Positions 14,453-50,808 of a stretch of DNA of 64,000 nt are shown in pieces. The notes beneath the pieces are model-generated. The model searched no databases. It was not told the origin of the DNA and saw only the letters and a list, made by a program, of their open reading frames with translations. Position 1 is the first letter of the stretch. Every line of letters begins with the position of its first letter. Position numbers and translations under genes: made by a program. The stretch is from an uncultured Flavobacteriales bacterium (GTDB lineage: Bacteria > Bacteroidota > Bacteroidia > Flavobacteriales_D > Parvicellaceae), in the NCBI GenBank assembly GCA_943788755.1, contig CALSRM010000003.1:806001-870000 (forward strand). The letters run 5' to 3'.

Positions 14453-15323
14453 AAACTTACATAACGAATTTTATGAAGAAAAGGAGAAAGACTTTTTTTC
14501 TAAAGTAAAGGTTGGTTTCTCCAAAAGCAAGGAAGATGTTTGGAGTAAAATGGAGGTTAAGTTAAACAATACAACTGAAGTTGAATCAAAGCAATTAAGA
14601 AAACAAACGAAAGTGATTTCTGTTAATTGGAAACGTTATTCAATCGCGGCATCAATTGCAATATTGTTTGGATTAGTGGGATTTATGAAATTTTACACCG
14701 TTGAATTTAATTCTGTTAATGGAGGTACACTATCCTTAATATTGCCAGACAATTCTAAGGTTCTTTTAAATGGTGAAAGTTCAATCCAATATAATCCATA
14801 CTGGTGGAGTTTTAATCGTCAGTTAAGTTTTGAAGGAGAAGCATTTTTTGAAGTAGAAAAAGGAAGTGAATTCACTGTTTTTTCTAAAAATGGTACCACA
14901 CAGGTTTTAGGCACCTCATTTAATATCTTGGCAGAAGATGGTATTTATGAAGTTTTTTGTAAAACAGGTAAGGTGAAGGTATCAGGAGGTATTGACTTCA
15001 AAGTTATCTTTCCAGGCACATTGGCAGTGTTGTCGTCAACCGGTAAAATTGAGATTTCTGAAGATGTTAAGGGAGAGGAAATATTGGCATGGAGAACGAA
15101 TGAGTTTATTTTCAATACAACTCCTTTGAGAAAAGTAATCCGTGAATTAGAAAGACATTATAACGTTACAATTATAGCTTCTAATTTGAATTTGAAAGAA
15201 ATGCGGTTTAGTGGGTCATTGAGCAGAGAAGCTTCTCTAACTGAAGTTTTGGAATCCGTTTGTTTTAGTTTTAATTTGCATATAGAAAAATCAGGTGACA
15301 ATATCTATACGGTTTCAGATTAG
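14442..15323 (+). CDS. FecR-family anti-sigma factor (with DUF4974)
   Basis: 293 residues. The N-terminal cytoplasmic part (about 1-65) is charged and contains FSKSKEDVWSKMEVKL, of the kind that binds the sigma factor. One membrane helix follows at about 68-84 (YSIAASIAILFGLVGFMKF). The periplasmic FecR domain (about 90-195) has LSLILPDNSKVLLNGESSI and REL-like FEGEAFFEVEKGS motifs. The C-terminal DUF4974 (about 215-290) has TPLRKVIRELERHYNVTI and FSGSLSREASLTEVLESV. It overlaps the sigma gene and abuts the receptor gene (TAG/GTG overlap of 1 bp), which fixes the operon. It should hold the sigma factor inactive until signalled. Confidence 0.92.
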   Translation: MENKNLHNEFYEEKEKDFFSKVKVGFSKSKEDVWSKMEVKLNNTTEVESKQLRKQTKVISVNWKRYSIAASIAILFGLVGFMKFYTVEFNSVNGGTLSLILPDNSKVLLNGESSIQYNPYWWSFNRQLSFEGEAFFEVEKGSEFTVFSKNGTTQVLGTSFNILAEDGIYEVFCKTGKVKVSGGIDFKVIFPGTLAVLSSTGKIEISEDVKGEEILAWRTNEFIFNTTPLRKVIRELERHYNVTIIASNLNLKEMRFSGSLSREASLTEVLESVCFSFNLHIEKSGDNIYTVSD

Positions 15324-17773
15324 TGAGGATTAAACATAACATCATAGTCCTTTGGTTGGGGGTTTTGTGCAATACAATAATTGGACAGGAGGTAAAATTA
15401 ACCTATCAGAACCTTTCTTTAAATGACGTCTTATTAAATTTAAGTGAGCAATATGATACACAAGTTTCAATTAATGCATCTGCAGCTAATAATTGCCTAA
15501 TAACAATTGATAAAGCCTTTGAGAATCTCTCTGAGGCTTTTTTGTATTTGGCAAATCATTGTAAGCTAGAAGTTCGGAAATTAGGAGGTGTTTATTCGTT
15601 TCGAGAGGTTTCATCTGCTGTCGAAGATTCGATTATACCAAGAAAGAAGAATGTGTATTTGTTTCAGGGAGTTGTAACAGATGTGAGCACTTCAGAACCA
15701 TTGCCTTTCGCCACATTGAAAATAGGAAGTCAAATATTGACCAGTAATGAGAATGGGTATTTTAGTTATAAATCGAACCAATCAAAACAAACAATTCGGC
15801 TGAAATATTTAGGGTATTATGAAAAGGATACAGCGCTAAATTTTGGAAGTGATTTGAAGATACTACTCCAGAGTTCAGTAATGAAATTAAAAGAGGTTGA
15901 AGTTAATTATAAACCTGTTTATTATGCGAGTACAGGTGGTGCTGTTGGAGAAATACAATTGAATGATATTGCATCTAATTTAGTGCCCGGTAACGGTAGC
16001 AACTTAATATTTAACACATTACGATTGTATCCTGGGGTTTCTGCTTCAGGCGAGTCAACTTCGGATTACATTATTTGGGGATCATATCCTGGTGAAAATA
16101 ATATTGTATTTGACGGAGTAACCTTATTTCACAGTCGAGGAATTAATGATGGAATAGGACGTGTAAACCCATTAATAATTAAAAATATTGAGGTTTATAA
16201 AGGCGCGTACAATGTGGATGTGGCAGACGGTGTAGGTGGTGCGGTACATATTAATGGAAAAAAAGGAAGTATTGACACTGCACAATTAGAACTTTCCGTA
16301 AACAATCAAATTACGGGGGTTTATACCAACCTTCCTTTCAAAAAGTTATCGTCTAATCTTCAGATTGCTGGACGATACTCATATTACCAATTAATGGAGG
16401 ATTTGTTAAAAACGAAAAGTAATGATAAATATTTTTATCCGAAATACAACTTTGGCGATTATAACATAAAACTCAATACACATTTTAATAATAACGATCA
16501 ACTACAGTTTAGCCTTCTCGGAAGTTCAGACAACTATTATGAATCTTTAGTCAAAGAAAAAGACGGATATTTTCAAGAGTTAAAGATAAGCTCAAAGCAA
16601 ACAGGAGGGGCATTTCGGTATAATAGAATGTGGAAGAAAGGGGGGATAACTTCTTTTCAATTGTCTAATAGTTTCTATACTACGGAATACACGTCTGAAA
16701 GTGAATTTCCTACATTTTTTGGTAGTTTATCTTCGGACAGTGTAAATAATTTTATCACCAAGAGTGCTCTACAAATGACCCATCAATTTCCTGTGTCTAA
16801 ATGGTATAATATGTTAACGGGCCTTGCGTACATTCAAAATGACTATCAACTTTCTATAAAGAATGACAGTGTGTTTTTAAACCAAGCTGATAATAGTTTA
16901 GAGCGTTGGTCTTCTTTTGTGAAAAATAACTTTCAATTAGGCCGGCTAACGCTCCAGCCAGGATTGAAATTAGACGTTGAATTATCAGGGTTACAACCTT
17001 TTCTACAACCTAGAATTAATGGTAAATATAACTTAAATCAATATTGGAATGTTAAGTTTGGTTCTGGGGTGTATCGTCAATATATTTCAAAATCATTGCT
17101 GACAGACAACTTTGGTCAGCGGACTTTTTTCTGGCAGACGAACAACAGTGTAACCGCTCCATCCACCAATGGAATTCATAATGCCTTGTCCATTTCGTAT
17201 GGGTCTAATGCCCTTGAATTAACCATAGAAGGGTTTTTTAAAACCACATCGAATATCAATAGGTATTTTATGATTGATAGTCTAAGTGGATTGTTTCATT
17301 CGGTAGGCGAATCTAAATCTTACGGAATAGACTTATTATTAAAAAGAAAATTTAGAACACATGAATTACTTTTGGCGTATTCACTTGGGAAAGTTGAAGA
17401 GAGGTTTGAACAAAACTCTAATCAGGATTTTACGCATGCTCCTCAAGATCAAAGACATGAAATAAAATTAAATCTCCTTTTTCGCTTCAATAAACTTAAA
17501 CTTTCTCTTAATCAAGTATACGGTTCTGGATTTAATAATGGTGCGGAGGGACTCTATTTTAAAGGAAGAGAACCTTACTCTCGTTTCGATTTAGGGATGG
17601 AATATGACCTTGTCTCTCGTAAAGTTGATATTGATTTAGGAGTTTCAGTACTCAACCTTTTTAGCGCACAAAACGTTAGATTAAATCAGTTTTCAAGTTT
17701 TCCTGATGGCTCAATTACTTATGTATCGGGGGTTCCGTTTACGCCAAGTTTAAATTTATTGGTTCGGTTTTAA
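15323..17773 (+). CDS. TonB-dependent receptor with N-terminal STN signalling domain
   Basis: 816 residues from a GTG overlapping the FecR stop codon. A signal peptide (ends NTIIGQ) is followed by a secretin/TonB short N-terminal (STN) domain at about 23-95, needed to talk to FecR. Next are a carboxypeptidase-regulatory-like domain (about 112-190, 'FQGVVTDVSTSEPLPFATLKI'-type start), a plug domain (about 225-310; VFDGVTLFH, IEVYKGAYNVDVADGVGGAVHI) and a 22-strand-type barrel ending in PFTPSLNLLVRF, a terminal aromatic strand. The FecI-FecR-STN receptor order implies substrate-induced expression. The substrate (siderophore, vitamin or glycan) cannot be read from the sequence; there is no SusD partner, which argues against a glycan. 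Confidence 0.9.
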   Translation: MRIKHNIIVLWLGVLCNTIIGQEVKLTYQNLSLNDVLLNLSEQYDTQVSINASAANNCLITIDKAFENLSEAFLYLANHCKLEVRKLGGVYSFREVSSAVEDSIIPRKKNVYLFQGVVTDVSTSEPLPFATLKIGSQILTSNENGYFSYKSNQSKQTIRLKYLGYYEKDTALNFGSDLKILLQSSVMKLKEVEVNYKPVYYASTGGAVGEIQLNDIASNLVPGNGSNLIFNTLRLYPGVSASGESTSDYIIWGSYPGENNIVFDGVTLFHSRGINDGIGRVNPLIIKNIEVYKGAYNVDVADGVGGAVHINGKKGSIDTAQLELSVNNQITGVYTNLPFKKLSSNLQIAGRYSYYQLMEDLLKTKSNDKYFYPKYNFGDYNIKLNTHFNNNDQLQFSLLGSSDNYYESLVKEKDGYFQELKISSKQTGGAFRYNRMWKKGGITSFQLSNSFYTTEYTSESEFPTFFGSLSSDSVNNFITKSALQMTHQFPVSKWYNMLTGLAYIQNDYQLSIKNDSVFLNQADNSLERWSSFVKNNFQLGRLTLQPGLKLDVELSGLQPFLQPRINGKYNLNQYWNVKFGSGVYRQYISKSLLTDNFGQRTFFWQTNNSVTAPSTNGIHNALSISYGSNALELTIEGFFKTTSNINRYFMIDSLSGLFHSVGESKSYGIDLLLKRKFRTHELLLAYSLGKVEERFEQNSNQDFTHAPQDQRHEIKLNLLFRFNKLKLSLNQVYGSGFNNGAEGLYFKGREPYSRFDLGMEYDLVSRKVDIDLGVSVLNLFSAQNVRLNQFSSFPDGSITYVSGVPFTPSLNLLVRF

Positions 17774-18057: not shown

Positions 18058-18354
18058 ATCATGGATTACGATGGTGGCAATAGAGAAACTATAACTGAAA
18101 GAGTAGGTACATTTGAAGATGTTACATCAAAGCTAGAAAAAGCACCCTACGTTACTGAGTGGGATGATGCTAAAGCTCTTCAGGACAAGAAGAAGAAACC
18201 TAAATTCCAAAAGTCTACATCCGAAGACATTGAAAATACTAAAGACTACATATCTCAAATTAATGACTCAGGGTTCTTGAATGAAATTACTTCACAAGAG
18301 ATTCTTAAGAAATACATTGTTAGGTTTTTGTTATTTCTTTTTCCTTACTGCTGA
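18037..18354 (+). CDS. Short charged ORF, possible gene fragment
   Basis: 105 codons, of which the last about 90 (from MDYDGGNRETITERVG) look coding: strongly charged, Lys/Asp/Glu-rich and presumably helical (KKKKPKFQKSTSEDIENTKDY). The last ten residues are hydrophobic and may be out of the original frame. No Shine-Dalgarno-like sequence is clear. It lies between a barrel fragment on the other strand and a large hairpin repeat. I do not recognise the family. A fragment of a larger cytoplasmic protein is as likely as a small gene. Confidence 0.35.
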   Translation: MIGVREQIMDYDGGNRETITERVGTFEDVTSKLEKAPYVTEWDDAKALQDKKKKPKFQKSTSEDIENTKDYISQINDSGFLNEITSQEILKKYIVRFLLFLFPYC

Positions 18355-18368
18355 TAGCGTTGGCAAGA

Positions 18369-18437
18369 CATACTTTTTGCAATTTTGGCTTGTCTAGTGG
18401 CTTGCGCAGTGGCTTGAGCGAATTGCAAATGTGTATG
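18369..18437. repeat. Long imperfect hairpin repeat on the left flank of the biosynthetic operon
   Basis: Arm CATACTTTTTGCAAT (18369-18383) pairs with ATTGCAAATGTGTATG (18422-18437) with one bulge. The loop contains three GGCTTG-type units (TGGCTTG, GGCTTGCGC, GGCTTGAGC). GCGTTGGCAAG immediately precedes the left arm. The element begins beside the stop of the operon's last gene. A related hairpin with the shared word CAAATGTG occurs at 26182-26243 on the other flank. Its architecture recalls long attC-like or mobile intergenic repeats of Bacteroidota, but I could not find matching core heptamers for it. Confidence 0.65.
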
Positions 18438-18440
18438 GCT

Positions 18441-19103
18441 TTAGCTTGGGTTTTTCAGATGTTTAATTCCAAATTCATTTTGCAATAAATTATTGATTTC
18501 GGTTGAACCCAGTTTTCTCTCTGTTTTTTCGGTTTCATTATATATTCGTAGTATATCTCCTTTGATAAAATAAAAGGAATCCTCTTTTAATATTGAAAAA
18601 CGTAAACTATTATGAAAGGGATAAATGGAGGTGTCTTTATATCGATTGGCTATATCACTTAAAATAGTTGACTCTGATTTTGTTTTTTTTGGTAGGACAA
18701 TCATTTGTTTATATAAATCCTTCTCTTTTCGGAAAATAACAAGTTCATTTTTAGTTATTTCAGTTTTGAAGCTCATGCCATAAACAGAATATTCAAGCGG
18801 CCTAAATTCAGGAATTAGTTTTACCGATGGCCAACCAGAACCAATGTCAATAAAATATTTTTTATCCTCAATGACAATAGACAACATTCTATGGCACTCT
18901 AAATTATTAACAAATGATGAGTGTAAATTTGTTTGAATGTCATACTCTTTAAGCACTTCTTTAAAGTGAAGTACTTTGTCAGAGCATGTTCCTCCCAGCC
19001 CTAAATCCTTATTTTTAACTTTATTGAGCATAAATATATTATGAAACGGAACAGTCTTAAACTCTTTTAATAAAAGGGATTCTATTTGAAGAATTAAATT
19101 CAT
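18441..19103 (-). CDS. Arylamine N-acetyltransferase-like acyltransferase
   Basis: 220 residues. It shows the Cys-His-Asp catalytic triad of the NAT family: Cys40 in GLGGTCSDK, His71 in ECHRMLSIVI, Asp86 in YFIDIGSGWP. The His-Asp distance of 15 residues equals that of typical NATs. It is shorter than usual (about 270-280), and the N-terminal helical part is reduced. Members of this fold transfer acyl groups from CoA or from carrier proteins to amines, including in amide-forming steps of natural-product pathways. It is the last gene of a nine-gene operon and overlaps the asparagine-synthetase-like gene by 4 bp. The family call is firm on motif grounds; the substrate is unknown. Confidence 0.75.
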   Translation of the reverse strand: MNLILQIESLLLKEFKTVPFHNIFMLNKVKNKDLGLGGTCSDKVLHFKEVLKEYDIQTNLHSSFVNNLECHRMLSIVIEDKKYFIDIGSGWPSVKLIPEFRPLEYSVYGMSFKTEITKNELVIFRKEKDLYKQMIVLPKKTKSESTILSDIANRYKDTSIYPFHNSLRFSILKEDSFYFIKGDILRIYNETEKTERKLGSTEINNLLQNEFGIKHLKNPS

Positions 19104-20530
19104 TTGTGGTTTATTCCTCTTTTAGTTATTGCTTTATCAAAAACTGGATATTTATGATAGTAGTCATTGTCAGCAGTGTTTTTATCAAAAAACTTACACC
19201 AAATTTCTTTAAGCGTTTCTCTTTCTGTCTTATTGTCTTTTGTTAGGTATTCAACAACTAATTTTCTTATACCTGAACCCACATCAAAAGATGTTTTTTG
19301 TCTTTCTATTATTTCTTGTGGTAGATCAGAAGTAAATAGGTTTCTTAAAATTTGTTTGTCTTTCAAGTCTTTCAATGGCAAATCTTTAGAGATAGCGTAT
19401 ACTTCTTTATCTAAAAATGGACATCTAATTTCAATAGTATTTGCCATCGATGATAAATCTAGTCTTCTTAATTCTGTGTAATGAAGATTTTTTAGTAAAA
19501 TAACACTCTTTTCTCGCGCTTCGGAAATATCATTAGATATTTTATAACCACAAAAAAACTCATCTGCTCCTTCTCCAGAAATTACAACTTTTAATTTGTC
19601 ATTTTTTGCAGATTTTGATAATAGGTAAGTCGCTAACCCATTACTTATAATTGAAGGGTTGTAACTTTCTGTATGGTAAACTACTTGTTCGATTAATTTG
19701 CCAATTTCTTCTTTATTAGGTAACGGAATATATTTTATTTGATTTTCTATTTGCAGATGGTTAATTAGAAGTTTTACAAAACCAATATCTTGATTTTCTC
19801 TATTACCTAATGTATAATAAATCGCATCTTTGGAGTGTTTCGAGAGGATTGAGGCAATGATAGAACTATCGAGACCACCACTTAGAAAAACACCAACCTT
19901 TTCATCATTTAGAGGGATTCTCTTCAATGTAGAATATATAATTGATTTTTTTAAAGAAGACTTCTTTACAAGAGGAAAGGAATGTTTTTTTAATGAAACA
20001 ACTTTCTGATTAATAATTTCCGAAAAACCTTTAGGAATAAACTCAAATAATTGAATTTTATCAAATGATTTAAGTTCGCTAGAAAGAAATTCTATTTTTT
20101 CGGTATTGCCATGAAATAATGGCTTTTTACCTATATAATCTCGTATCGTAAAAATCTTATTTGTTTCATTATTGTATATGATACCAGAGTAAAACCCATC
20201 AAGAACATTTATAATATCAGCACCAATAATTTTGTACAATGGTAGGATAATTTCAATATCAGATGTAGAATGTAGTGCTATACCATATTCTTTTGCGAGT
20301 GCAATAGAATTGAAAATTTCACCATTAAATGCTCCAACTAAATATTCAAATTCAAACGGTTGCATTCCATTTTCAGTTTTATCGTTTATTACTAAACGAT
20401 TAAAACCTAAAGAAAATAAATAAGAATTATATATTTTCGAATTATCCAGTCCTCTGTGTTTAATTCGAGATAAAGCATCTAAACAGTCTGATTCTTTATG
20501 ATTACCGATAATTGCAACTATGCCACACAT
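19100..20530 (-). CDS. Asparagine synthetase-like amidotransferase
   Basis: 476 residues, a class II glutamine amidotransferase fused to an ATP-pyrophosphatase. Cys2 (MCGIVAIIG) is the glutaminase nucleophile. RIKHRGLDN, NRLVIND and GAFNGEIFN are the conserved N-terminal blocks. FLSGGLDSSIIASIL at about 212-226 is the PP-loop, and VISGEGADEFFCGY is the second ATP-binding block. It is shorter than housekeeping AsnB (about 550), mainly at the C-terminus. Such homologues often act in secondary metabolism or glycan amidation, activating a carboxylate as acyl-AMP and forming an amide. It abuts the M20-like gene (no gap) and overlaps the NAT-like gene, so all three are likely one functional module. 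Confidence 0.88.
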   Translation of the reverse strand: MCGIVAIIGNHKESDCLDALSRIKHRGLDNSKIYNSYLFSLGFNRLVINDKTENGMQPFEFEYLVGAFNGEIFNSIALAKEYGIALHSTSDIEIILPLYKIIGADIINVLDGFYSGIIYNNETNKIFTIRDYIGKKPLFHGNTEKIEFLSSELKSFDKIQLFEFIPKGFSEIINQKVVSLKKHSFPLVKKSSLKKSIIYSTLKRIPLNDEKVGVFLSGGLDSSIIASILSKHSKDAIYYTLGNRENQDIGFVKLLINHLQIENQIKYIPLPNKEEIGKLIEQVVYHTESYNPSIISNGLATYLLSKSAKNDKLKVVISGEGADEFFCGYKISNDISEAREKSVILLKNLHYTELRRLDLSSMANTIEIRCPFLDKEVYAISKDLPLKDLKDKQILRNLFTSDLPQEIIERQKTSFDVGSGIRKLVVEYLTKDNKTERETLKEIWCKFFDKNTADNDYYHKYPVFDKAITKRGINHK

Positions 20531-21331
20531 TTATATTTCAGTTTTATTTATCCATTTTATGAATTTTTTAAAAATATCATTATGCTTTACTAAATTTACA
20601 ACACTCAAACTTTCGTTAGCTCGATGAATATTACTTGAGCTGTCATTAGGTCCAAACCCTACGTAATAAGCATTTTTTGGGATATTAGTTAGGAAAGGAC
20701 ATTTAGTGAATTTACTTAAGGATCTGTTAGCGTAAATTGCTTTACCTTCATAAATAGAATTATTCATTTCATCAATGAAATCGGGCTTACTTGTTGTTTC
20801 AGGTAAATGAAATATCACTGGAACATTATTTTGATAAACACCTGTTTCTTCCACATATATCTTTGAATTAAATTCTTTAATGTGTTTTGGGATTACTTCA
20901 AATGGCGTTTTTCCAGCAACCTCTTCTTCTCCTTGTATAATCCATAAGATATTTGGTAACTCTTCGTTATTGTTTTGTAATTCAATCAGTGAGAATATAC
21001 GACTTATTAAGATACCTTTATTATCAGCTATTCCTCTTGCATAATATCGCCCATTTTTTTCAATGAGTTCAAAAGGGTCTGTGTCCCATTTATCTGCTTT
21101 ATGTATTTTTTCTACATCATAATGAGCGTATAATGTTACTTTTTTAGTAGAATTTTGATTAGTATATTTTGCTATTATTACAGGTTGATTGTATGAACTA
21201 TTTCCTTCAATAGAGATACTAAATCCTATCGATTTTAATAAATCGATTACTAATTCAATTCCTTGAATATTAGATGATTCATCATTGGCAATTGTTTTAA
21301 TTGCAATGATTTTTTTTAGTGCATTAATCAT
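20531..21331 (-). CDS. M20-family metallohydrolase-like protein, reduced
   Basis: 266 residues. Zinc ligands of the M20 family are in place: His70 and Asp72 in YAHYDVE, Asp103 in GIADNKG, Glu135-Glu136 in IIQGEEE, an acidic pair at 161-162, and His236 in NIHRANES. It is much shorter than the usual 350-450 residues because the dimerisation ('lid') domain is missing. It should be an amidohydrolase, deacylase or peptidase acting on a small amide. In this operon, beside amide-forming enzymes, it may trim or deprotect an intermediate. Overlaps its upstream neighbour by 8 bp. Confidence 0.8.
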   Translation of the reverse strand: MINALKKIIAIKTIANDESSNIQGIELVIDLLKSIGFSISIEGNSSYNQPVIIAKYTNQNSTKKVTLYAHYDVEKIHKADKWDTDPFELIEKNGRYYARGIADNKGILISRIFSLIELQNNNEELPNILWIIQGEEEVAGKTPFEVIPKHIKEFNSKIYVEETGVYQNNVPVIFHLPETTSKPDFIDEMNNSIYEGKAIYANRSLSKFTKCPFLTNIPKNAYYVGFGPNDSSSNIHRANESLSVVNLVKHNDIFKKFIKWINKTEI

Positions 21332-21938
21332 TCTTGTTTATTTCAATTATTAATCTTAATTCATTTTTCCACCCTTCAGGTAAATAAAAACCTAAGGGTG
21401 TAATAAGTCCATTGTCTAACCTTCTTACATCTTGTGCATATACTTCATTTCTTGTATATTTTTTAAAAAAATCAAGGATTTCGTTTGCGGAATCAAAATC
21501 TATAGCCTCTTCCTTACCATAATCATCAAAAGGAATTGAGTGTATCCAAGTAGCGTTATTCTTTGAAACTCGATACATTTCTTCTACAGCTTTTTGCGGA
21601 AATAATGAATGGTCAAGCGAGTGGTGTGTGTAAACTATAGTAAAGGTATTATCAGAAAAAGGCAGATTATGCATGTCTGCCTCAGTAATGAAATCAGCTC
21701 TAGGGTAGATGTCAATAGCTTGAATATTTGTATAGCCTAATTGTTTAAAAGCTTCAACTTCAATGCCATATCTAGATCCAATACATAGTATTTTTGCTTT
21801 CGTTTTTTCCTGTATATTTACTTTTGATATTATGTCAATATGTTTTGAAAATAGCTTCAATTCGTATAATCGACCTACTTCTTTCCATTGCTTTTTTTTA
21901 TAGTCTTCATAACTATTTATAGGGATTAGTTGTTTCAT
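21324..21938 (-). CDS. Class I SAM-dependent methyltransferase
   Basis: 204 residues with the Rossmann methyltransferase pattern: motif I as ILCIGSRYGIEVEAF (about 51-65), an acidic residue after beta2 in IQAIDIYP, then ADMHNLPFSDNTFTIVYTHHSLDH (in parts: LPFSDNTF and HHSLDH), and RVSKNNATW. This is the Methyltransf_11 type. The motif I glycines are fewer than usual (GSRYG). Target atom unknown. Overlaps both neighbours (8 bp and 4 bp), so it is translationally coupled within the operon. Confidence 0.8.
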   Translation of the reverse strand: MKQLIPINSYEDYKKKQWKEVGRLYELKLFSKHIDIISKVNIQEKTKAKILCIGSRYGIEVEAFKQLGYTNIQAIDIYPRADFITEADMHNLPFSDNTFTIVYTHHSLDHSLFPQKAVEEMYRVSKNNATWIHSIPFDDYGKEEAIDFDSANEILDFFKKYTRNEVYAQDVRRLDNGLITPLGFYLPEGWKNELRLIIEINKND

Positions 21939-22642
21939 ATTTCTGGTATTATTACGATTATTGTATGCTTAGGTAATTCGATATTATTTAAGACCTTGTC
22001 TATTGATTCGATAGTAGATTCTACTATTTTTTCATCTTTCCAAGATACCTTATATGCAAAGATTACTCTGGTTTTAGGGGAATAATAAACAGTAATAAGT
22101 TTCTTAATGAGGTACCAATCTCTATAAGACTGATATAAAACTAAATTTGGTTTTGATGAGAATGTTTTTGCTAATTCTTTGTTATCAAATTGGTTTATAT
22201 CGCGAAGCCTTTCAATACTTGTAACAAAAACATTTTGACTATTTGTAAAAGAAGTAAGATCTATTTTTGAAATCGCACAAATTGCATTTAATGCACTTAT
22301 GCCTGGTATGACTTCGTATTTATAATTTGACTGTTCAAAATGGGTTACATATTCACTTAATGTAAATTGTTCTAAATACTGTCCAGAATAAAAAGAGGAA
22401 TCTCCTGGCATCAATAATGCAATGCCTTTATTGCTTGAATATGCAGTTTCAATAATAGATAGAACTTTTTGATTGTTTATTTTTCCTGTAAACAATTTTT
22501 TGTTTTTAAATAAGGACTTGAAATCTTCCCCTATCATTTCACCAATATAAATTCCTATCTCAGCTGCTTCAATAACTTTAAGAGCCTTCAACGTTAGGTA
22601 ACCAGTATCTCCACCTGGACCAATTCCTATTATATAGATCAT
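21935..22642 (-). CDS. Tetrapyrrole-methylase-fold SAM methyltransferase (CobM/CbiF-like)
   Basis: 235 residues. GIGPGGDTGYLTLKALKVIEAA at the N-terminus (GIGPG, then LTLKAL) is the SAM-binding opening of the tetrapyrrole methylase superfamily. LMPGDSSFYSGQ and YEVIPGISALNA are its next two conserved blocks. FAYKVSWKDEKIVESTI near the C-terminus closely follows the precorrin-4 C11-methyltransferase pattern ('YKASWPDEK'). No cobalamin gene is nearby, so it probably methylates a different substrate in this pathway. The same fold was recruited for peptide-backbone N-methylation in borosins, but resemblance here is to CobM/CbiF. Confidence 0.82.
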   Translation of the reverse strand: MIYIIGIGPGGDTGYLTLKALKVIEAAEIGIYIGEMIGEDFKSLFKNKKLFTGKINNQKVLSIIETAYSSNKGIALLMPGDSSFYSGQYLEQFTLSEYVTHFEQSNYKYEVIPGISALNAICAISKIDLTSFTNSQNVFVTSIERLRDINQFDNKELAKTFSSKPNLVLYQSYRDWYLIKKLITVYYSPKTRVIFAYKVSWKDEKIVESTIESIDKVLNNIELPKHTIIVIIPEI

Positions 22643-23619
22643 ATATCCAACGCTCTTATTTCATAAATATCCCCAAGTCTTTCAAATGTATATTCTGTAA
22701 GCAATTCCCCTTTATTATTCAATAGATAAATAGAGGGGGTGTTAGAATATCTTTTGTCATTTTCAAAACAAATATCACTACCGCCCACAAAAACAAAAGT
22801 AGGAGTAACCAACAAGCCTCTCAGTAATTTTTCGGCCTCGTAAATAACCTTATTATTTTTTACTAATTTTTTATTGTTGCTATCACAATAGATTTGTTCA
22901 TCCATATTATTAATATAAATATTATGAGCTGAATGCGCATTAAGAGAAACTACATCGTGTTTTTCTGTTTCTAAATCATAGACTATTAAGTCACTCATTT
23001 TTCCAGTTCTCATTGTAAAATTATGAGCAATAGAATACAATTTGTTCTTATTAGCAAATATTGAGTTCAGATGACTATGAGAGTTCAACTTTAGCTCTAT
23101 TGATTTACAATTTTCTATTCTTAATGGTTTATTTGATTTATGAATTTCACAAAAGGGTATGCTTAATATTTGGTTATAACCAGTGTGTGGAAATGTCAAA
23201 TTACCTTTTATGCTATCTATCTGGTGTAATTCACTAGGTATACCAAATAACGCTATTTTTAAATCGACAAGTTCTCCATTACTAATTTTAGAATAGTATA
23301 TTTCTGATATTCTTTCATTTATTGGGAATTCTCTATTTCCATTAGTGCCAAGTCGCGCAAAATACCAATATTCCTTATGTTTAGTGATTCCGTAAAATTT
23401 ACCTTTTAATAGTTGTTTATGAATATTGTTAACTGTGTCTAAAACAAAAATTCCTTTTGACGTAGAAAAAATGATTGAAAAGTTAAGTTGTTTTCCTTTC
23501 ATTTTAAAGTTTAAATCCCTTTCAGAGTATAGAATTTCTTTGTAATTAGCAATCTGTTGATTACTTTTCTTCCTCTGGCGATTCGAAACTTCGATTGTAT
23601 GTTTAAAAACGGTGTTCAT
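22639..23619 (-). CDS. Beta-propeller-like protein (DUF4915/TIGR03032-like)
   Basis: 326 residues without signal peptide or membrane helix. It contains repeated short beta-strand units with residues such as HSHLNSIFANKNKLYSIAHN, NAHSAHNIYINNM and LLRGLLVTPTFVFVGGSDI. These recall the TIGR03032/DUF4915 family found with glycan- and metabolite-modifying genes. It may be a sugar- or substrate-binding propeller, but no catalytic motif is evident. It overlaps the CobM-like gene by 4 bp and is 2 bp from the deacetylase gene. The family call is from memory of sequence style and moderate. Confidence 0.5.
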   Translation of the reverse strand: MNTVFKHTIEVSNRQRKKSNQQIANYKEILYSERDLNFKMKGKQLNFSIIFSTSKGIFVLDTVNNIHKQLLKGKFYGITKHKEYWYFARLGTNGNREFPINERISEIYYSKISNGELVDLKIALFGIPSELHQIDSIKGNLTFPHTGYNQILSIPFCEIHKSNKPLRIENCKSIELKLNSHSHLNSIFANKNKLYSIAHNFTMRTGKMSDLIVYDLETEKHDVVSLNAHSAHNIYINNMDEQIYCDSNNKKLVKNNKVIYEAEKLLRGLLVTPTFVFVGGSDICFENDKRYSNTPSIYLLNNKGELLTEYTFERLGDIYEIRALDI

Positions 23620-23621
23620 TA

Positions 23622-24422
23622 TTAATAAATCATGTTTTCTGTAATGAATTTACGTTCTAGTTCAAAATTTCCATAATCTGTAAGTTTTTTTGACTTTATA
23701 GCGCACGCATATTTTATGTTTTTATTCTTCAAAATTTCAACTATATTAGAGTTGTATTGTCCATCTGTATAAGCATAAGATTCTATTTCAATACCAATCT
23801 CAAATAAAGCTTGTTTTGTTTGTTGGATATCTTGACAGATGCCCTCAGTGCTAAGTTTTGTATATAAGTCATGATACATTGAATGCCCACCAATTTCGTG
23901 ACCTAAACTACTTAAGTCTTGTAATTGATTTATGGACATATAAGAAACGTTATTTCTTAAATTATTACTATTTAGAAGAGTTTTTATAAATTCTTCTTGT
24001 TGAGTGATAGAATAACGTAAAAAAATAATTTTTTGTTTTCCTGTAATCCAATCATCTTTTTTATCTAACGTTATGTTCTCATTTACATAGTGGTAATAAT
24101 AATCTAATGGTGCAATTTTACGTTCTTTACAGTAACCTATTACAGGATAAAAAGTTGCTTTGATGTTATACTTCTCTAAAATAGGTTTGGCATACAAATA
24201 ATTATCAGTATAGCCATCATCAAAAGTTAGCGCAACTTGACTTGTGTTTGGTGCATCATCAAGGTTTGATATAGTTTTAAAAGAGTAATCATTTCTTAGG
24301 TATTCGAGTATTAACTTTTCTAGTCTTTCTTGCGAAATTAACGTACCTCTAATAAAATAAGCATCATTGAAGTCTATTTTAGATTTAGGTAATACTCTAT
24401 GAAACATTAATATCTCAATCAT
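23622..24422 (-). CDS. Polysaccharide deacetylase (NodB homology) family protein
   Basis: 266 residues. Motif 1 VALTFDDGYTDN supplies the catalytic base and metal Asp. Motif 2 GGHSMYHDL supplies the two metal-binding His. SYAYTDGQYN is in the position of motif 3, with Arg replaced (usual form RxPY/PxG). There is no signal peptide, so it is cytoplasmic, unlike peptidoglycan deacetylases; it probably removes an N-acetyl group from a small glycosylated or amide intermediate. It overlaps the LOG-like gene by 8 bp. A glycosyltransferase-like gene starts the operon, which fits a GlcNAc-transfer-then-deacetylation step. That pathway order is inference. Confidence 0.8.
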   Translation of the reverse strand: MIEILMFHRVLPKSKIDFNDAYFIRGTLISQERLEKLILEYLRNDYSFKTISNLDDAPNTSQVALTFDDGYTDNYLYAKPILEKYNIKATFYPVIGYCKERKIAPLDYYYHYVNENITLDKKDDWITGKQKIIFLRYSITQQEEFIKTLLNSNNLRNNVSYMSINQLQDLSSLGHEIGGHSMYHDLYTKLSTEGICQDIQQTKQALFEIGIEIESYAYTDGQYNSNIVEILKNKNIKYACAIKSKKLTDYGNFELERKFITENMIY

Positions 24423-24912
24423 TAAATATCAATTTAGAAAGTTCTTCTAATGATTTAAAACCAATAAGTAATCCGTCTTTTCTATTATCTAAATTTTGAT
24501 TGGCAAGTTTTTTACTCCACCCTTCTGTTCCTGTATAGCAAAATACTTTTTTCCCAAATTGCCAAGCATAACTAATTTCATTTAAAGTACCTGCTCCTCC
24601 ACCTAAAGCAATTAAAATATCTGATGACGAAACAATTACGGAGTTTCGAGCAAAACCAATTCCAGTTGGGATTATAACATCTAAGTACTTATTTGCCTTC
24701 TCTTTATTATCAAATGGAAGAATACCAACAGTTTTACTGAGTATATTTTTGCTGTCCTTAACACCTCTTGAAACGGCTTCCATAGTTCCTTGCATTCCAC
24801 CATTTACAATTGTGATCCCTTTCTTACCCAGCAGTAAACCAAGGTTATATGCAAACTCATACAACTCATTAGAACATTGACTTTTATTTGAACCTATGAT
24901 ACCAATTTGCAT
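24415..24912 (-). CDS. LOG/TIGR00725-like nucleotide-binding protein
   Basis: 165 residues of Rossmann type with IGIIGSNKS, GGMQGTMEAVSRG and ALGGGAGTLNEISYAW, the GGGxGTxxE motif of the LOG (cytokinin riboside phosphoribohydrolase)/DprA-related superfamily. The block VIIPTGIGFARNSVIV is characteristic of the TIGR00725 subgroup. LOG enzymes cleave nucleoside 5'-monophosphates to free base and ribose phosphate, so a nucleotide may be a substrate or by-product in this pathway. That link is inference. Overlaps the glycosyltransferase-like gene by 19 bp. Confidence 0.78.
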   Translation of the reverse strand: MQIGIIGSNKSQCSNELYEFAYNLGLLLGKKGITIVNGGMQGTMEAVSRGVKDSKNILSKTVGILPFDNKEKANKYLDVIIPTGIGFARNSVIVSSSDILIALGGGAGTLNEISYAWQFGKKVFCYTGTEGWSKKLANQNLDNRKDGLLIGFKSLEELSKLIFND

Positions 24913-26153
24913 AACTGTAATTTTAAATTTTCTTGTTTTAGTGAAAACTTTTTAAACTCACTGATAAAGTGACTTCTATCAAAAGAATTGATTTGAATGT
25001 CTAATTCTATTAATCTATCTATTTCGTTTTTAAATTCATTCTTGTTCATGTTTTCATATAATAATTCTAAGATGTTTTTAATGTGTTTCTGATAAAAAAG
25101 TAAACGGTTTGTAAATTCAGTTTCTCCTTTGTATAAATATGAAACAAGTAAAGCACCAATCATATCTGAAAAATATTTTTCAGAACTATTTTCAATTGAG
25201 GAATAGTTAAAAGTCCTGTTGTGTACAAGACTAAAAAAGGAAACATCTCTTATTTGAAATCCTACTTCGGTTAATAAATGAGAATGTATCATGTCGCTTC
25301 TTCTGGCTGGTATGTTATTACTTTCTGAAAATCCCAAATGAGGTATATGAAAAATTTCAGGATTGAAAACAATAAAATTCCCACCTCTTAAAAGTTTTGA
25401 TCTTGTGAATTCTGGAACACTACTTATATTGTTATTGAAAGAAATTTTAGTAATTGGTTTTCCAATAAGTATATTTTTCACAATAGAAATTCTGTTATCA
25501 GTATTTGATAGAAAAATAGAATAGTTCTTGTCAGAATTATTCTGATTGTAATAATCGTGAAATTCGGACTGTACTTTAGTTTTTTTAGGCATGTACTCTC
25601 CTTTAAAAAAAACATTTAATTGACTTTCGCAATAGAGTAGCGACGGTATCGGTGGCGCATAAGTTGAAGGTGAAATAATTGCATCAATATTTTCATTCTG
25701 GTGATACAAATTTACAATTTCAGAAAAATAATTAGTTGAATAATTGACAGTATGTTTATTGTTTCTTAATTCACTTCTGCCAAAAAGCATATCATCATCT
25801 ACTTGCCAGATAATGGAATCTTTAAACGTTTCAAAGTTCTCAATAATAAAAAATTGTTGTTGTATTCTTGCTCTTTGTATGCTGTCAATTCTTGTAGAAC
25901 AATTTGCTTTACTAAAAAAATTAGAATACTTTTTTTCTAATTCTTGGATTTCAAAAAGGTTAATTACTTCAATGTTTAATGGTAAACGTTCTAATTTGCT
26001 CTCTATATTTTGTTTGAATGTCTTATCAAATATTACAATCGATAATATGTAGTTTTTGTTATTGTCAAAAGAATATGATTTTATGATACTTTCAATTATG
26101 TTATTCGTATTTTTTTCATTTTTTGTTGAAAATATGATATTTATTTTTGTCAT
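24894..26153 (-). CDS. Glycosyltransferase-like protein (GT-A type), first gene of the operon
   Basis: 419 residues starting with a beta-strand (KINIIFSTKNE) and holding WQVDDDML at about 117-124, a DxD-like metal/UDP-sugar motif in the right context (interrogated 'D-D-D' after a hydrophobic strand). IDAIISPSTYAPP and LRGGNFIVFNPEIF further down fit an acceptor-binding half. The C-terminal 100 residues are Asn/Lys/Glu-rich and helical. No membrane segment. It is the promoter-proximal gene, 110 bp after the reverse-transcriptase remnant; the spacer holds a hairpin repeat. I would call it a sugar transferase with moderate confidence. Confidence 0.55.
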   Translation of the reverse strand: MTKINIIFSTKNEKNTNNIIESIIKSYSFDNNKNYILSIVIFDKTFKQNIESKLERLPLNIEVINLFEIQELEKKYSNFFSKANCSTRIDSIQRARIQQQFFIIENFETFKDSIIWQVDDDMLFGRSELRNNKHTVNYSTNYFSEIVNLYHQNENIDAIISPSTYAPPIPSLLYCESQLNVFFKGEYMPKKTKVQSEFHDYYNQNNSDKNYSIFLSNTDNRISIVKNILIGKPITKISFNNNISSVPEFTRSKLLRGGNFIVFNPEIFHIPHLGFSESNNIPARRSDMIHSHLLTEVGFQIRDVSFFSLVHNRTFNYSSIENSSEKYFSDMIGALLVSYLYKGETEFTNRLLFYQKHIKNILELLYENMNKNEFKNEIDRLIELDIQINSFDRSHFISEFKKFSLKQENLKLQLCKLVS

Positions 26154-26181
26154 TCTTCTTCATTTGAGATAGGTGGCAAAG

Positions 26182-26243
26182 AATTGCTCTTTTGGTTTTT
26201 TCCGTTTTTGCTTTGAATTTTGGCAAAAACCAAATGTGCAATT
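26182..26243. repeat. Long imperfect hairpin repeat on the right flank of the biosynthetic operon
   Basis: AATTGCTCTTTTGGTTTTT (26182-26200) pairs with AAAAACCAAATGTGCAATT (26225-26243) at 16 of 19 positions, with a 24-nt loop containing TTTTGGC. GTGCGGTTGGC follows. It lies between the operon start and the stop of the RT remnant and shares CAAATGTG with the repeat at 18369-18437. Together they bracket the nine-gene operon. Confidence 0.65.
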
Positions 26244-26261
26244 TGTGCGGTTGGCTTTTTT

Positions 26262-26930
26262 TTAATGAAACTCAACGTTTGCTTTTCTTCTTAGGCTTTT
26301 TTTGAGTACAAATTTAGCCATTCCGTCACTAAAGTAAAGATAATTAAACCACCAACCTGATAAGCCTGTTTTATTCTTAAAAATCATTTTTTTACGAATA
26401 TTAAACGATTGGTAATGTTTCATTATCCCTAAATAGGAATTTAAACTGCTCAACAGGGCTTCTTGTTCCGTTTTTGTGGGTTTTTGGTTTTGTACTATTT
26501 GGTTTTGCTTACTAATGGCAGTAAAAAAATTACCTCTGGTACGGTTGGCGATGTATATTCGGTTTGGTAAAGTTACAGCTCCAATAAATTTAACGCCTTT
26601 TTTATAATGTTGTAAATGCATTTTCTTTGGATGCAGGGTAAGTTGTAAATTTGAACGCAAGAAGTTTGAAAGTTGATGAATTAGACTTTTCAAATATTCT
26701 TTGTTTGTGTGTACAATTACAAAATCATCTACATACCTGCCGTAATATTTTAGGTTTAATTCTGATTTTACATAATGGTATAAAGTATTCATATAAAAAT
26801 TAGCAAATAGTTGACTTGTTAAATTACCAATGGGTAAACCACAATTTAGCGGACTATGAAACAAGCTTTTGTTGTTGGGTAAACCGTTCCAATTACTACG
26901 CATACCTTTAATGATGCAGTTTAGGTTTTT
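26262..26930 (-). pseudogene. 5'-truncated reverse transcriptase, DGR type
   Basis: The C-terminal about 220 residues of a reverse transcriptase. GLPIGNLTSQ carries the (I/V/L)GxxxSQ motif typical of diversity-generating retroelement RTs (group II introns and retrons differ here). YGRYVDDFVIV at about 54-64 (from the ATG at 26903) is the catalytic YxDD box. LHPKKMHLQHYKKGVKFIGAV is the following thumb-proximal block. The frame is open seven to nine codons upstream of the ATG (reading NLNCIIKG), which also fits DGR RTs, and then stops where the flavin oxidase gene ends. The whole finger domain is missing, so it cannot be active. No template repeat or Avd-like gene is adjacent. Confidence 0.8.
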
Positions 26931-28045
26931 TTATGTTCAGTATTAAGTAAAATCTCATCAACAGCTTTTTTAGCTGATCGAGCAGCGGTGTGAACTGACA
27001 CCCAACTTTCACCATCTGTATATTCACCACCGGCAAAATACACTTTGTTTTTTATGGATTCGCTTAATGTCCGTACCTCTTTCCAATCCGCGTGATCTGT
27101 AAGATAACCACCTCTTATGAACGGTTCCTTATTCCAATTCTGACTGATGTGCTTTTTGTAATTACTGGTTGCATGATTTGAAAATAGGTTGTCGAGTTCT
27201 TCTAAAACGACATCCCTTAGTTGACTTTTAGATAGGGAGTTATATTTGTCGACACTATTCCCTACGGAAAACAATCCTATGATGTTCTTATCGCTATCCT
27301 GTCCGAATGATGCATCGTAAAAAATCTTTTGTTGGGTCTTTGAATTCTCGATAATTTTTTCAAATCCTGAATCATAGAAGCTGTTTGAGAATTCAAAGAA
27401 AGCTTTGAATCCATCCCAAATAAGTGCATTTTTAATGACGCTTTGCTTGTCTTTGGATAAACCTGGGGTAAACTCAATGTCACCAGCTTGAAGAATCTTT
27501 AATGGAACACTCACAATTACCTTGTCAGCAAGTTTCAGTCCTTGGCTAGTTGAAACACTAATCTTTTCTTCCGAATAATTGATGGAGTGAACAATCGAAT
27601 TGAATACTATTTTGTCCAAAATGCTAGGAACAATGTATTTTTCATAGAAATTGAACCAAGATGAATTGACAAACTTGTAGTCGGGTGAGTCCTTTATAGT
27701 TTTGATATCCAATTGAACTGAGTCATCATTCAAAATTTCTGAAAATATTTCACCCTTTGTTTCTATCCATTCCGCCCCCAATGGTATTGGGAACTCTGCA
27801 AAATCCGTGTTGATTTTCATTCTTCCACCGAAATCTGAAGAAGCTTCAAGGATTTCAAAATCAATTCCCAATTGGTCAAGTAGGTAGCCAGCTGATAGCC
27901 CACCAGCTCCAGCCCCAATAATTATTACCTTTCCTTCGAACTTACTACTTATATGATTTATTAGACTACTTGTAACACAAGAAGTGTGAAAAGGGACAAT
28001 AATTCCCAATAAGCCACAAATTTTTATAAACTCTTTTCTAGTCAT
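26921..28045 (-). CDS. FAD-dependent amine oxidase-like protein (cassette 5)
   Basis: 374 residues of the flavin monoamine oxidase family. VIIIGAGAGGLSAGYLL at about 40-56 is the dinucleotide-binding motif. FEILEASSDFGGRM has the Glu contacting ribose and the family GGR. YFAGGEYTDGESWVSVHTAARSAK is the C-terminal FAD block (in parts: FAGGEYTDG and SVHTAARSA). The N-terminus MTRKEFIKICGLLGI resembles a Tat signal (with RK for RR) and is followed by a possible lipobox (FHTSC, Cys23), so the enzyme may be exported as a folded flavoprotein. It is short for the family (about 450). Its stop lies inside the open frame of the truncated RT. It begins just after a GTTATAT core-like site at 28058-28064. 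Confidence 0.85.
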   Translation of the reverse strand: MTRKEFIKICGLLGIIVPFHTSCVTSSLINHISSKFEGKVIIIGAGAGGLSAGYLLDQLGIDFEILEASSDFGGRMKINTDFAEFPIPLGAEWIETKGEIFSEILNDDSVQLDIKTIKDSPDYKFVNSSWFNFYEKYIVPSILDKIVFNSIVHSINYSEEKISVSTSQGLKLADKVIVSVPLKILQAGDIEFTPGLSKDKQSVIKNALIWDGFKAFFEFSNSFYDSGFEKIIENSKTQQKIFYDASFGQDSDKNIIGLFSVGNSVDKYNSLSKSQLRDVVLEELDNLFSNHATSNYKKHISQNWNKEPFIRGGYLTDHADWKEVRTLSESIKNKVYFAGGEYTDGESWVSVHTAARSAKKAVDEILLNTEHKKT

Positions 28046-28109: not shown

Positions 28110-29308
28110 ACTTTTATATTGACAGTGCTAAAATTCAACCTTATTTTTTCATCTATAATGTCAACCGTAATAGTGGGGTGTTCAGTAACAATTAGATTAT
28201 TTAAATCATTTATTACCGTTTCCCTTGAGCTTTGGGTCAGATCTTTTGCGGAGAAAATCAACTCGATAAATCCTTCGTGCTCTTTCGTATCAAGACTAAT
28301 TCCATTTTTTGACTCTGATTTTCCAAGTTCTGAGGAAATTATCAATAGACAATTCGTGATTATGGCAATAGCTAGATTCCCCTTTGTATATATCTTAGGG
28401 TCTGATTCGAAATCAGGTAGAGGAAAACCACCTATTAATTTTGTTGCATTTCGAGAAAGGTCTTGAGCTGAAATAACTATTTCAGACAGGTTAGTAGATT
28501 CGATATTCATTACTATCTGTTCCAGAGCATCTACGCAATCTATACTATCGTTTACTGCGAATTCTGTCTCCTGGAGAAGATCTTCATTCAATTGGTTTGC
28601 TTTTATAGCAGCTTCAAGTGAAAGTCCTATTGCTTCAGAATATTTTAATTCATTTGAAATCAAATAGTTAGCATGATTTAGAAAAGTCCGAATGGTGGTT
28701 TCTGCTGAATAGCTTGATTTTGTGATATCTTGAATTGACTTTAATGAGTTGGATAATTCGGAAAGTGCTGGCTTTAAGGCAGATTCAGTAAGATCTAGTC
28801 TTGTCTGCCTACGATTTTTTGTGATTACTTCAAGTCGCTTATTTACGAGCTTCGCTAGGTTGTTCAGACTAGTATGTTCTTCTTTTGAAAAGCCTCTTTT
28901 TTTAGTATCAAGGACACAAAGGGAACCCATCACATTTTCTTTAACCATTATTGGAACCCCTAAATACGATTGAATGTTGTACTCCTTAACAAAGTGCTGC
29001 GGTATCCTTGGATCATCAGACGCATCGTTAACTTCAAAAGTTTCTCCATCTCGAACCACGAATTGACAAAATGAGACGTCACGATGTGTCCCTCTTGCAG
29101 AAGCAAGAACCGGAGGTAGCCCTATGTGGGCCTTGAAAAATTGTACTTGGTCCAAGACAAGACTAACCAGGGCAATAGGGCTATCAAGCTCTGCTGCGGC
29201 CTTTTTGACAATTTCTTGAAGCTCGGAATCATTAGTTTCTGCTAATAATTCCTTGGTGAAGAGGTCAAACCTTTCATTTGAATCTCCTAAAACATCAATT
29301 CTATCCAT
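28094..29308 (-). CDS. GAF-domain sensor protein (cassette 4)
   Basis: 404 residues, no signal peptide, cytoplasmic. A GAF domain occupies about 20-160: IALVSLVLDQVQFFKAHIGLP, SFCQFVVRDGETFEVNDASDDPR and YLGVPIMVKENVMGSLCVLD are typical of bacterial light, redox or small-molecule-binding GAFs. The C-terminal 230 residues are mainly helical, with LALSNSLKS-like repeats, and may be a dimerisation or degenerate HisKA-type module. The end (FIELIFSAKDL, TVDIIDEKIRLNFSTVNI) is beta-rich, reminiscent of an HATPase-like fold, but I see no His box or N/G boxes. It stands alone between two attC-like elements, so it is a one-gene cassette. Confidence 0.75.
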   Translation of the reverse strand: MDRIDVLGDSNERFDLFTKELLAETNDSELQEIVKKAAAELDSPIALVSLVLDQVQFFKAHIGLPPVLASARGTHRDVSFCQFVVRDGETFEVNDASDDPRIPQHFVKEYNIQSYLGVPIMVKENVMGSLCVLDTKKRGFSKEEHTSLNNLAKLVNKRLEVITKNRRQTRLDLTESALKPALSELSNSLKSIQDITKSSYSAETTIRTFLNHANYLISNELKYSEAIGLSLEAAIKANQLNEDLLQETEFAVNDSIDCVDALEQIVMNIESTNLSEIVISAQDLSRNATKLIGGFPLPDFESDPKIYTKGNLAIAIITNCLLIISSELGKSESKNGISLDTKEHEGFIELIFSAKDLTQSSRETVINDLNNLIVTEHPTITVDIIDEKIRLNFSTVNIKVANKT

Positions 29309-29327
29309 TTTTCATTTTTTTTATTGC

Positions 29328-49380: not shown

Positions 49381-50808
49381 ATGAAAAAAATTACTACTTT
49401 AATGATTGCTTTACTTGCTGGAATTACCAGTTGGGCACAATGTTCTGCTGATTTTTACTCTTACAACAACGGCAACAACAATGATGTGGCTTTTTATGCT
49501 GTTGATTCTAATCAAACAGGAACATACACATGGGATATGGGAGACAGCACTGTCATGACAACAATCACTGGTGAGGCCTTCCATACATATGGATCACCTG
49601 GATTATATTTTGCTTGTTTAACTTTTGATGGTTCAGGTGCTTGGGCAGGATGTACTATTACTTCTTGTGATTCTGTTTTTGTTGGAAATACACCTCCACC
49701 TCCAACATGTGACGCATCATTTGGGATATCAAACTCTCAAGGCTCTATGAATGTAAATTTGTATGCTTATGACTCTACTCAAACAGGGTCCTATGTTTGG
49801 AGTATGGGAGATGGGTCTGAAGTTACATCAACTAACGGTTTCGGTGTTTATTCTTATGCATCGAATGGAACTTATTCTGTATGTTGTACTTTTGATGATG
49901 GAATGGGTTGTGCGGATACTTATTGTGATTCTGTAGTTATTGGAAATACACCTCCACCTTCTTCATGTTCTGCAGATTTTTACTCTTACAACAACGGCAA
50001 CAGCAATGATGTGGCTTTTTATGCTGTTGATTCTAATCAAACAGGAACATACACATGGGACATGGGAGACAATACGCTAATGACAACAACCACTGGTGAG
50101 GCCTTCTATACATATGGATCACCTGGATTATATTTTGCTTGTTTAACTTTTGATGATGGGATGGGTTGTACGGATACTTATTGTGATTCTGTTTTTGTTG
50201 GAAATACACCTCCACCTTCTTCATGTTCTGCAGGTTTTTACTGGTGGCAAGCTTATGATTCTATCAATAATTCATTTTCAAGTAATGTTTATTTAGTAAA
50301 CATGGCAACTGGTGCTAACTTAACGTATTCTTGGAGTTTTGGTGATGGAAATACTTCTTCGCAACAATACCCAACGCATACTTATGCTCAAATAGGAAGT
50401 TATGGTATTTGTTTATCTATAGATAATGGAAACGGTTGTACCGATACTTTTTGCGATACAATTTCTGTTGTAGTTAAGTCAAGTGGGTTTACATTAAATG
50501 TAATAAGTGAAAGTGAAGTAGCGTCTGTTGGAATTGAAAATGAAGAGGTGATTGGCCTTACATCTTTATACCCGAATCCTGTAAATGAGTCGGCAACATT
50601 AGAATTTAACGCTACTCAAAATACAAATGTTGACGTAACAATTATCGATATTTCTGGAAAGCAAGTAAATAACTTTTCTACGAATATTAATTCGGGAAAT
50701 AATAAAATTGCAGTTGGAACTTCTGATTTAGCGAACGGATACTATATGTTGAATATCAGCTCTAAAGATGGTGGTTTGACAAAAACAATTCGATTTGCAA
50801 AGCAATAA
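49381..50808 (+). CDS. PKD-repeat surface protein with T9SS sorting domain
   Basis: 475 residues. Signal peptide (ends ITSWAQ). Four tandem PKD-like repeats of about 90 residues follow; each has TYTWDMGD or TYSWSFGDG, then YTYGSPGLYFACLTFDDG and CDSVFVGNTPPP linkers. The first and third repeats are almost identical over 60 residues, which shows recent duplication. The C-terminal 75 residues are a type A sorting domain: SLYPNPVNESATLEF, IIDISGKQVNNF, ANGYYMLNISSKDGG. Exported by T9SS; probably an adhesin or matrix protein. A terminator follows at 50847. Confidence 0.88.
   Translation: MKKITTLMIALLAGITSWAQCSADFYSYNNGNNNDVAFYAVDSNQTGTYTWDMGDSTVMTTITGEAFHTYGSPGLYFACLTFDGSGAWAGCTITSCDSVFVGNTPPPPTCDASFGISNSQGSMNVNLYAYDSTQTGSYVWSMGDGSEVTSTNGFGVYSYASNGTYSVCCTFDDGMGCADTYCDSVVIGNTPPPSSCSADFYSYNNGNSNDVAFYAVDSNQTGTYTWDMGDNTLMTTTTGEAFYTYGSPGLYFACLTFDDGMGCTDTYCDSVFVGNTPPPSSCSAGFYWWQAYDSINNSFSSNVYLVNMATGANLTYSWSFGDGNTSSQQYPTHTYAQIGSYGICLSIDNGNGCTDTFCDTISVVVKSSGFTLNVISESEVASVGIENEEVIGLTSLYPNPVNESATLEFNATQNTNVDVTIIDISGKQVNNFSTNINSGNNKIAVGTSDLANGYYMLNISSKDGGLTKTIRFAKQ

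Follow-up and report, generated by a model that had tools for sequence, protein, structure and literature searches.

A nine-gene flavobacterial operon from an apparently undescribed family of AsnB-NAT-GT clusters with exchanged front ends

Introduction

Nine tightly packed genes on a contig of an uncultured Flavobacteriales bacterium (Parvicellaceae) raise the question of whether they form one pathway, what it might make, and how it came to be there. The genes lie at 18441-26153 of a 64,000-nucleotide stretch of contig CALSRM010000003.1 (hereafter the window, whose numbering is used throughout) and encode, in order, a glycosyltransferase-like (GT) protein, a LOG-like protein, a NodB-type deacetylase, an orphan protein, a CobM/CbiF-like methyltransferase, a class I methyltransferase, an M20 metallohydrolase, an AsnB-like amidotransferase, and a NAT-like acyltransferase. 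A sequence-only reading had proposed a small-molecule pathway, moved as a block and matching none known. We favor a related view, which we regard as evenly balanced between right and wrong: the operon would be a horizontally acquired cytosolic biosynthetic pathway belonging to an apparently undescribed cluster family, with a product that we infer from the enzymes encoded.

Results

A cluster family with a three-gene core

A tblastn search of plasmids with the nine joined proteins identified adjacent AsnB and NAT relatives on a Pseudoalteromonas donghaensis plasmid, where they adjoin a GTP cyclohydrolase II-NADAR fusion (RibA-NADAR) and a large protein that contains GT2 and is related, in its C-terminal part, to the window GT; plasmid tblastn with the GT or the orphan protein as query gave no match. 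An AsnB alignment search of the genome collection then returned 26 full-length relatives (41-59% identity to the window protein), and locus L126 was added by a NAT profile. The range covers Flavobacteriales, Vibrio, Psychrobacter, Shewanella, Sandaracinus, and a Poseidoniales archaeon, although the labels of contigs from metagenome-assembled genomes (MAGs) may err. The 28 relatives, several of them MAG contigs cut at their ends, are spread over Bacteroidota, Gammaproteobacteria, Myxococcota, and marine archaea and make 29 loci with the window.

AsnB is present in 29 of 29 loci, NAT in all except one cut contig, and the GT domain in 29 of 29 (in L021 by hidden Markov model (HMM)); the GT-domain HMM matched all clusters apart from truncated pieces. 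RibA and NADAR occur together in 20 of the 29, with both domains above Pfam cut-offs and the RibA motifs HSSC and DCDC kept. M20 is found in eight loci, window included, and LOG in seven of those eight. No locus carries both front ends, and L033, a short contig, carries neither. Core genes are fused in several clusters, as AsnB-NAT (L011-L015) and AsnB-NAT-GT2-GT (L014), and RibA-NADAR is joined to a kinase-like domain, identified by weak Pkinase matches, in L013 and L014. On the basis of these sequence comparisons, we take the family core to be a GT-A domain, AsnB, and NAT, accompanied by either a LOG/M20 or a RibA/NADAR front end. The window's nine genes are not conserved together: NodB relatives occur in three clusters (L017, L021, and L034), and none of the relative clusters found contains a counterpart of the CobM-like, class I methyltransferase, or orphan gene. 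This lack of counterparts would suit a chance run of unrelated, independently acting genes gathered by transfer, but the junctions overlap, and the same core recurs in 29 loci of several phyla with core-gene fusions, so that we find a chance run scarcely credible.

The orthologs found do not lie scattered, and much of the set turns up again in clusters of other genomes. The open-licence literature yielded no relevant paper on GTP cyclohydrolase II with NADAR, AsnB, and NAT or with defense islands and no assignment of the set to a known glycan or cofactor pathway, and no defense model was found for it, in agreement with the claim that it matches no known pathway. The family is apparently rare and undescribed. 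RibA-NADAR fusions stand outside riboflavin operons in the 20 loci, including L010:14018-15025 and marine archaeal MAGs. HipA-type proteins directly adjoin two clusters, at L017:506-1756 (by Pfam) and L013:6012-7274 (by similarity to that of L017). A transposase-like open reading frame (ORF), recognized by eye, lies between the epimerase and M20 genes at L015:8176-9102, a position that a DUF1152 gene occupies in sister clusters.

Exchange of front ends and the proposed chemistry

Mapped on a 25-sequence AsnB tree, head type requires four changes, at least three of which are forced by well-supported branches. The Tenacibaculum and Bacteroidales MAG RibA-NADAR clusters nest inside LOG-M20 Bacteroidota, and the Arsukibacterium LOG-M20 cluster groups with gammaproteobacterial RibA-NADAR clusters. 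Because head type switched at least three times, the two front ends probably do equivalent work. LOG proteins cut N-ribosidic bonds of nucleotide 5′-phosphates and M20 enzymes are metal-dependent amidohydrolases, which would make LOG-M20 a natural counterpart of RibA-NADAR.

By analogy with riboflavin chemistry, RibA and NADAR would convert GTP to an aminopyrimidine freed of ribose-5-phosphate; in the window, LOG would take the NADAR part and M20 the deformylating or amide-cleaving part. NAT would then acylate an aromatic amine, AsnB would use glutamine nitrogen to amidate a carboxylate, and GT would attach a sugar, with NodB and the two methyltransferases providing decoration. These steps would lead to a glycosylated N-acyl aminopyrimidine or pseudonucleoside. 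The product class put forward earlier, an amide- or sugar-containing metabolite or modified nucleotide, is likewise something that we infer rather than demonstrate. Since the operon has no transporter, the product may act inside the producer.

Several points weigh against this scheme. Its product and function are unproven deductions from gene content, and another reading of the head exchange is that the clusters make different products but share their tailoring steps. In L016, M20 occurs with no LOG; the GT2 and kinase-like domains of most relatives are missing from the window; the N-glycosidase activity of TIGR00725 proteins is putative; and the orphan protein has no assigned part.

Alternatively, the genes could make or modify a surface glycan (capsule or O-antigen) in which amidated, acylated, and deacetylated sugars are attached by GTs. 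The GT-A domain, GT2, NodB, and the NDP (nucleoside diphosphate)-sugar epimerases of several clusters would fit, and glycan loci often hold amidotransferases and deacetylases. However, no flippase, polymerase, ligase, or transporter is present in any cluster core, RibA-NADAR and LOG have no role in making glycans, arylamines are the substrates of NAT-type acyltransferases, and these short, mobile clusters do not lie in glycan loci. We therefore consider a glycan function unlikely.

The operon and its acquisition as a block

The ORF junctions bear out a single nine-gene operon on the minus strand (26153 to 18441), in which adjacent genes overlap, abut, or sit at most 2 nt apart (Table 1). The overlaps are 19 nt (GT/LOG), 8 nt (LOG/NodB and class I methyltransferase/M20), and 4 nt (orphan/CobM-like, CobM-like/class I methyltransferase, and AsnB/NAT); NodB and the orphan gene are separated by 2 nt, and M20/AsnB abut (0 nt).

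Table 1. Features of the operon and its immediate flanks in the window
Feature	Positions	Strand	Evidence
GT-A-fold sugar enzyme, 419 aa; first gene, core	24894..26153	-	GT-A model, invariant DxD
LOG-like/SLOG cluster 4 protein, 165 aa; front end	24415..24912	-	PF18306 134 bits; TIGR00725
NodB-type polysaccharide deacetylase, 266 aa; accessory	23622..24422	-	PF01522 69 bits
Orphan protein, 326 aa; earlier called propeller-like	22639..23619	-	ORF; no Pfam match
CobM/CbiF-like methyltransferase of the tetrapyrrole methylase family, 235 aa	21935..22642	-	PF00590 97.5 bits
Class I S-adenosylmethionine methyltransferase, 204 aa; accessory	21324..21938	-	PF08241 41 bits, above cut-off
Reduced M20 metallohydrolase, 266 aa; front end	20531..21331	-	PF01546 66 bits
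AsnB-like glutamine-dependent amidotransferase, 476 aa; core	19100..20530	-	PF00733 157 bits and GATase_7
NAT-like acyltransferase, 220 aa; last gene, core	18441..19103	-	PF00797 27.4 bits
Reverse transcriptase remnant, outside the pathway	26262..26903	-	N-terminally truncated; RVT_1 profile positions 107-202 of 205 only
Imperfect stem-loop downstream of operon, weak	18350..18445		z -1.5 vs shuffles (folded as DNA)
Imperfect stem-loop upstream of operon, weak	26165..26265		z -2.5 vs shuffles (folded as DNA)

The GC content of the operon is 28.5%, compared with 36.2% for the rest of the window. Among the genomes sampled, the NAT profile located the operon in 1 of 39 genomes of its family and 2 of 395 Bacteroidota; in 369 genomes of the class of Vibrio furnissii it gave a strong match in the center genome only and weak matches in two others. 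In the congener G386, the TonB-receptor gene (window 14917-17771) and the GAF gene (window 28322-29327) are ∼240 bases apart, and the operon is absent from the interval. The amine oxidase gene that adjoins the operon (window 26921-28045) is found in G386 (L135) beyond the GAF gene and inverted; because its order and orientation differ, the G386 locus is a rearranged place and not a clean empty site. The low GC content, the absence from the 38 other family genomes, and the different flank arrangement in the congener support horizontal acquisition as a block, as had been suggested.

The earlier description of gene debris at the operon end also holds, in the form of the truncated reverse transcriptase. 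The flanking hairpin repeats amounted to one weak imperfect stem-loop per side, which are not convincing transfer ends, and the genome matches one of the two in short partial stretches only; hairpin-mediated transfer was rejected on these grounds. Viral carriage was rejected as well: an AsnB scan of viral contigs returned generic relatives only (∼25-31% identity), and scans of viral contigs with CobM and NAT gave no match.

The reverse transcriptase remnant, which adjoins the operon start, resembles the C-terminal half of group II intron or diversity-generating retroelement enzymes. Nearby, window 30622-31989 encodes a protein with an Lcl_C-like (DUF1566) C-terminus, under the Pfam cut-off, and this gene contains two 167-nt direct repeats (31214-31563); Lcl_C-like domains can be targets of diversity-generating retroelements. 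Elsewhere in the window, tandem 162-nt repeats (58218-58703) and a repeat cluster with a spacing of 160-258 nt (49440-50242) lie inside coding-like sequence.

Core enzymes

Seven of the nine gene names given earlier were borne out by family scans. The first gene, GT, had no Pfam match in the family scan, and its name was upheld by an AlphaFold2 model built from an alignment with 16 relatives (pLDDT 68, pTM 0.74), which has a GT-A fold. The invariant residues include the DxD pair D119/D121, R256-G257, R284-R285, and D287. The top solved match in a structure search was the GT75 NDP-pyranose mutase MtdL of the A201A nucleoside antibiotic pathway (Z 15.4, root-mean-square deviation 4.0 over 265 residues), with which the DDD motif is also in common; the match raised the possibility that GT is a GT75 enzyme. 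MtdL has no sequence match to GT, however, and its autoglycosylated Arg159 has no clear counterpart among the invariant GT residues. Because the MtdL score is close to those of many other GT-A enzymes (Z 13-14), the model makes the fold clear, but the structure match does not assign the reaction.

The AsnB-like protein has the full-length glutamine amidotransferase plus synthetase architecture of asparagine synthetase B, including the GATase and PF00733 domains, the N-terminal Cys2, and the SGGLDSS loop, and it belongs to the asparagine synthase superfamily. In contrast to asparagine synthetase B, it scores below the equivalog cut-offs (246 bits versus 267.1 for TIGR01536; 256.5 versus 499 for PRK09431). 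Its subgroup shares ∼46% identity across phyla and ∼30% with ordinary plasmid AsnB.

For the NAT-like protein, the PF00797 score exceeds the curated cut-off of 22.8 bits, and C40, H71, and D86 do not vary among 19 sequences, with equivalence to the Cys-His-Asp triad judged by motif order. The protein is predicted to be an acyltransferase of the arylamine N-acetyltransferase family. Together with AsnB, it might alternatively belong to a lasso- or borosin-type ribosomal-peptide system in which the CobM-like protein would N-methylate the peptide: lasso cyclases are AsnB homologs, lasso proteases and NAT come from one Cys-His-Asp fold family, and the tetrapyrrole methylase superfamily includes the borosin methylases. 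Yet the overlapping operons leave no space for a precursor gene, the lasso cyclase model NF033535 scores 56.6 bits against a cut-off of 525, NAT exceeds its own family cut-off, and the CobM-like gene is missing from all relatives found. A peptide system is thus highly improbable.

Front-end and accessory proteins

The LOG-like protein surpasses the TIGR00725 cut-off (139.8 versus 106.9 bits) and falls short of that of NF058542, the LOG phosphoribohydrolase model (43.1 versus 300). Its motifs GGGAGT..E and RN are conserved in seven clusters, and it is likely a nucleotide N-glycosidase. M20 is indeed reduced, as noted earlier, and retains the H, D, E-E, E/D, and H motifs; HYD, ADNKG, GEEEV, EETG, and NIH are conserved in eight clusters, and the window protein is 58-61% identical to M20 of the Bacteroidota clusters and 37% to that of L021. 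With catalytic motifs kept in NAT, M20, and LOG, the operon looks functional and not decayed.

The CobM-like protein reaches 111.4 bits with TIGR01465 against a CobM/CbiF equivalog cut-off of 259.65. The genome (97% complete) holds just two PF00590 proteins, the second of which was read as RsmI from its sequence. A cobalamin (B12) role was rejected because the score is far below the CobM cut-off and the genome has no other corrin-ring methylase; most likely, the protein is a methyltransferase that has come to act on a different substrate.

The name propeller-like was not confirmed for the orphan protein, which has no Pfam, PDB, or genome relative and whose single-sequence AlphaFold2 model (pLDDT 34, strands only) is unusable for fold assignment. 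DUF4915-like proteins are encoded in L021, L033, and L034; homology of the orphan protein to them was rejected (hhalign probability 2%).

Defense neighborhoods

Defense genes of seven kinds lie within ∼10 kb in 7 of the 19 loci with useful flanks: HsdR and McrBC (type I R, L036), SspB/SspC (L021), DruH (L027), mad6 and HerA (L022), AbiEii and TIR (L011), HsdM and PDC-S26 (type I M, L126), and an Orf5/HEC-06-type gene (L031). Together with the sporadic distribution of the clusters and their lack of a transporter, these neighbors would suit an anti-phage defense family whose intracellular antimetabolite or nucleotide-like signal would halt phage replication. The neighbors were chosen by eye against an assumed background, however, giving p 0.002 at a background of 10% and 0.07 at 20%; 5 of the 19 flanked loci are closely related Psychrobacter, and the association is for these reasons a lead and not a finding. 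Moreover, mobile genes of whatever kind collect in such islands, the window has no recognized defense neighbor, and L018, L026, L015, and L016 have ordinary ones. In PADLOC 2.0, the core proteins matched no system model and NADAR alone gave a weak match (PDC-M42C), in a scan outside which NodB, the class I methyltransferase, and the window AsnB fell. We regard a defense function as doubtful. It is quite improbable that AsnB-NAT-GT clusters constitute a new chemical class of anti-phage defense in bacteria and archaea, in which GTP or a related nucleotide would be processed through RibA-NADAR or LOG-M20 to a glycosylated acyl-aminopyrimidine antimetabolite and RibA-NADAR would be a committed biosynthetic enzyme there instead of serving damage control.

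Discussion

Antimicrobial pathways from GTP cyclohydrolase II exist, as illustrated by the psd operon for pseudoiodinine, which its authors likened to tox and which has a GTP cyclohydrolase II start, methyltransferases, and a WD40 protein (PMC9911603). The tox (toxoflavin) and psd operons are built on a GTP cyclohydrolase II homolog and make toxic heterocycles, and the sister clusters likewise start from GTP cyclohydrolase II. The window operon differs in lacking GTP cyclohydrolase II, RibD, and a sulfatase-modifying-factor protein (the sole PF00925 gene of the genome is on contig C1, outside the operon), whereas AsnB, NAT, LOG, M20, and GT are not reported with tox/psd. The second comparison is with the RibA-COG3236 (NADAR) fusion of riboflavin metabolism, the same two-domain enzyme as in 20 sister clusters. 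RibA-COG3236 cleaves early riboflavin intermediates, and the Vibrio cholerae fusion is encoded in the rib operon and is described as removing these intermediates when in excess (PMC5312566). In contrast, the sister-cluster fusions sit among AsnB, NAT, and GT, and the window has LOG-M20 instead.

The clusters outline what appears to be an undescribed pathway family whose logic can be tested. On a single core, two unrelated front ends have replaced one another on at least three occasions, so that the known chemistry of RibA-NADAR predicts that of LOG and M20. The sister clusters supply a minimal four-gene version that is directly expressible and analyzable, and RibA-NADAR fusions gain a second context besides riboflavin operons.

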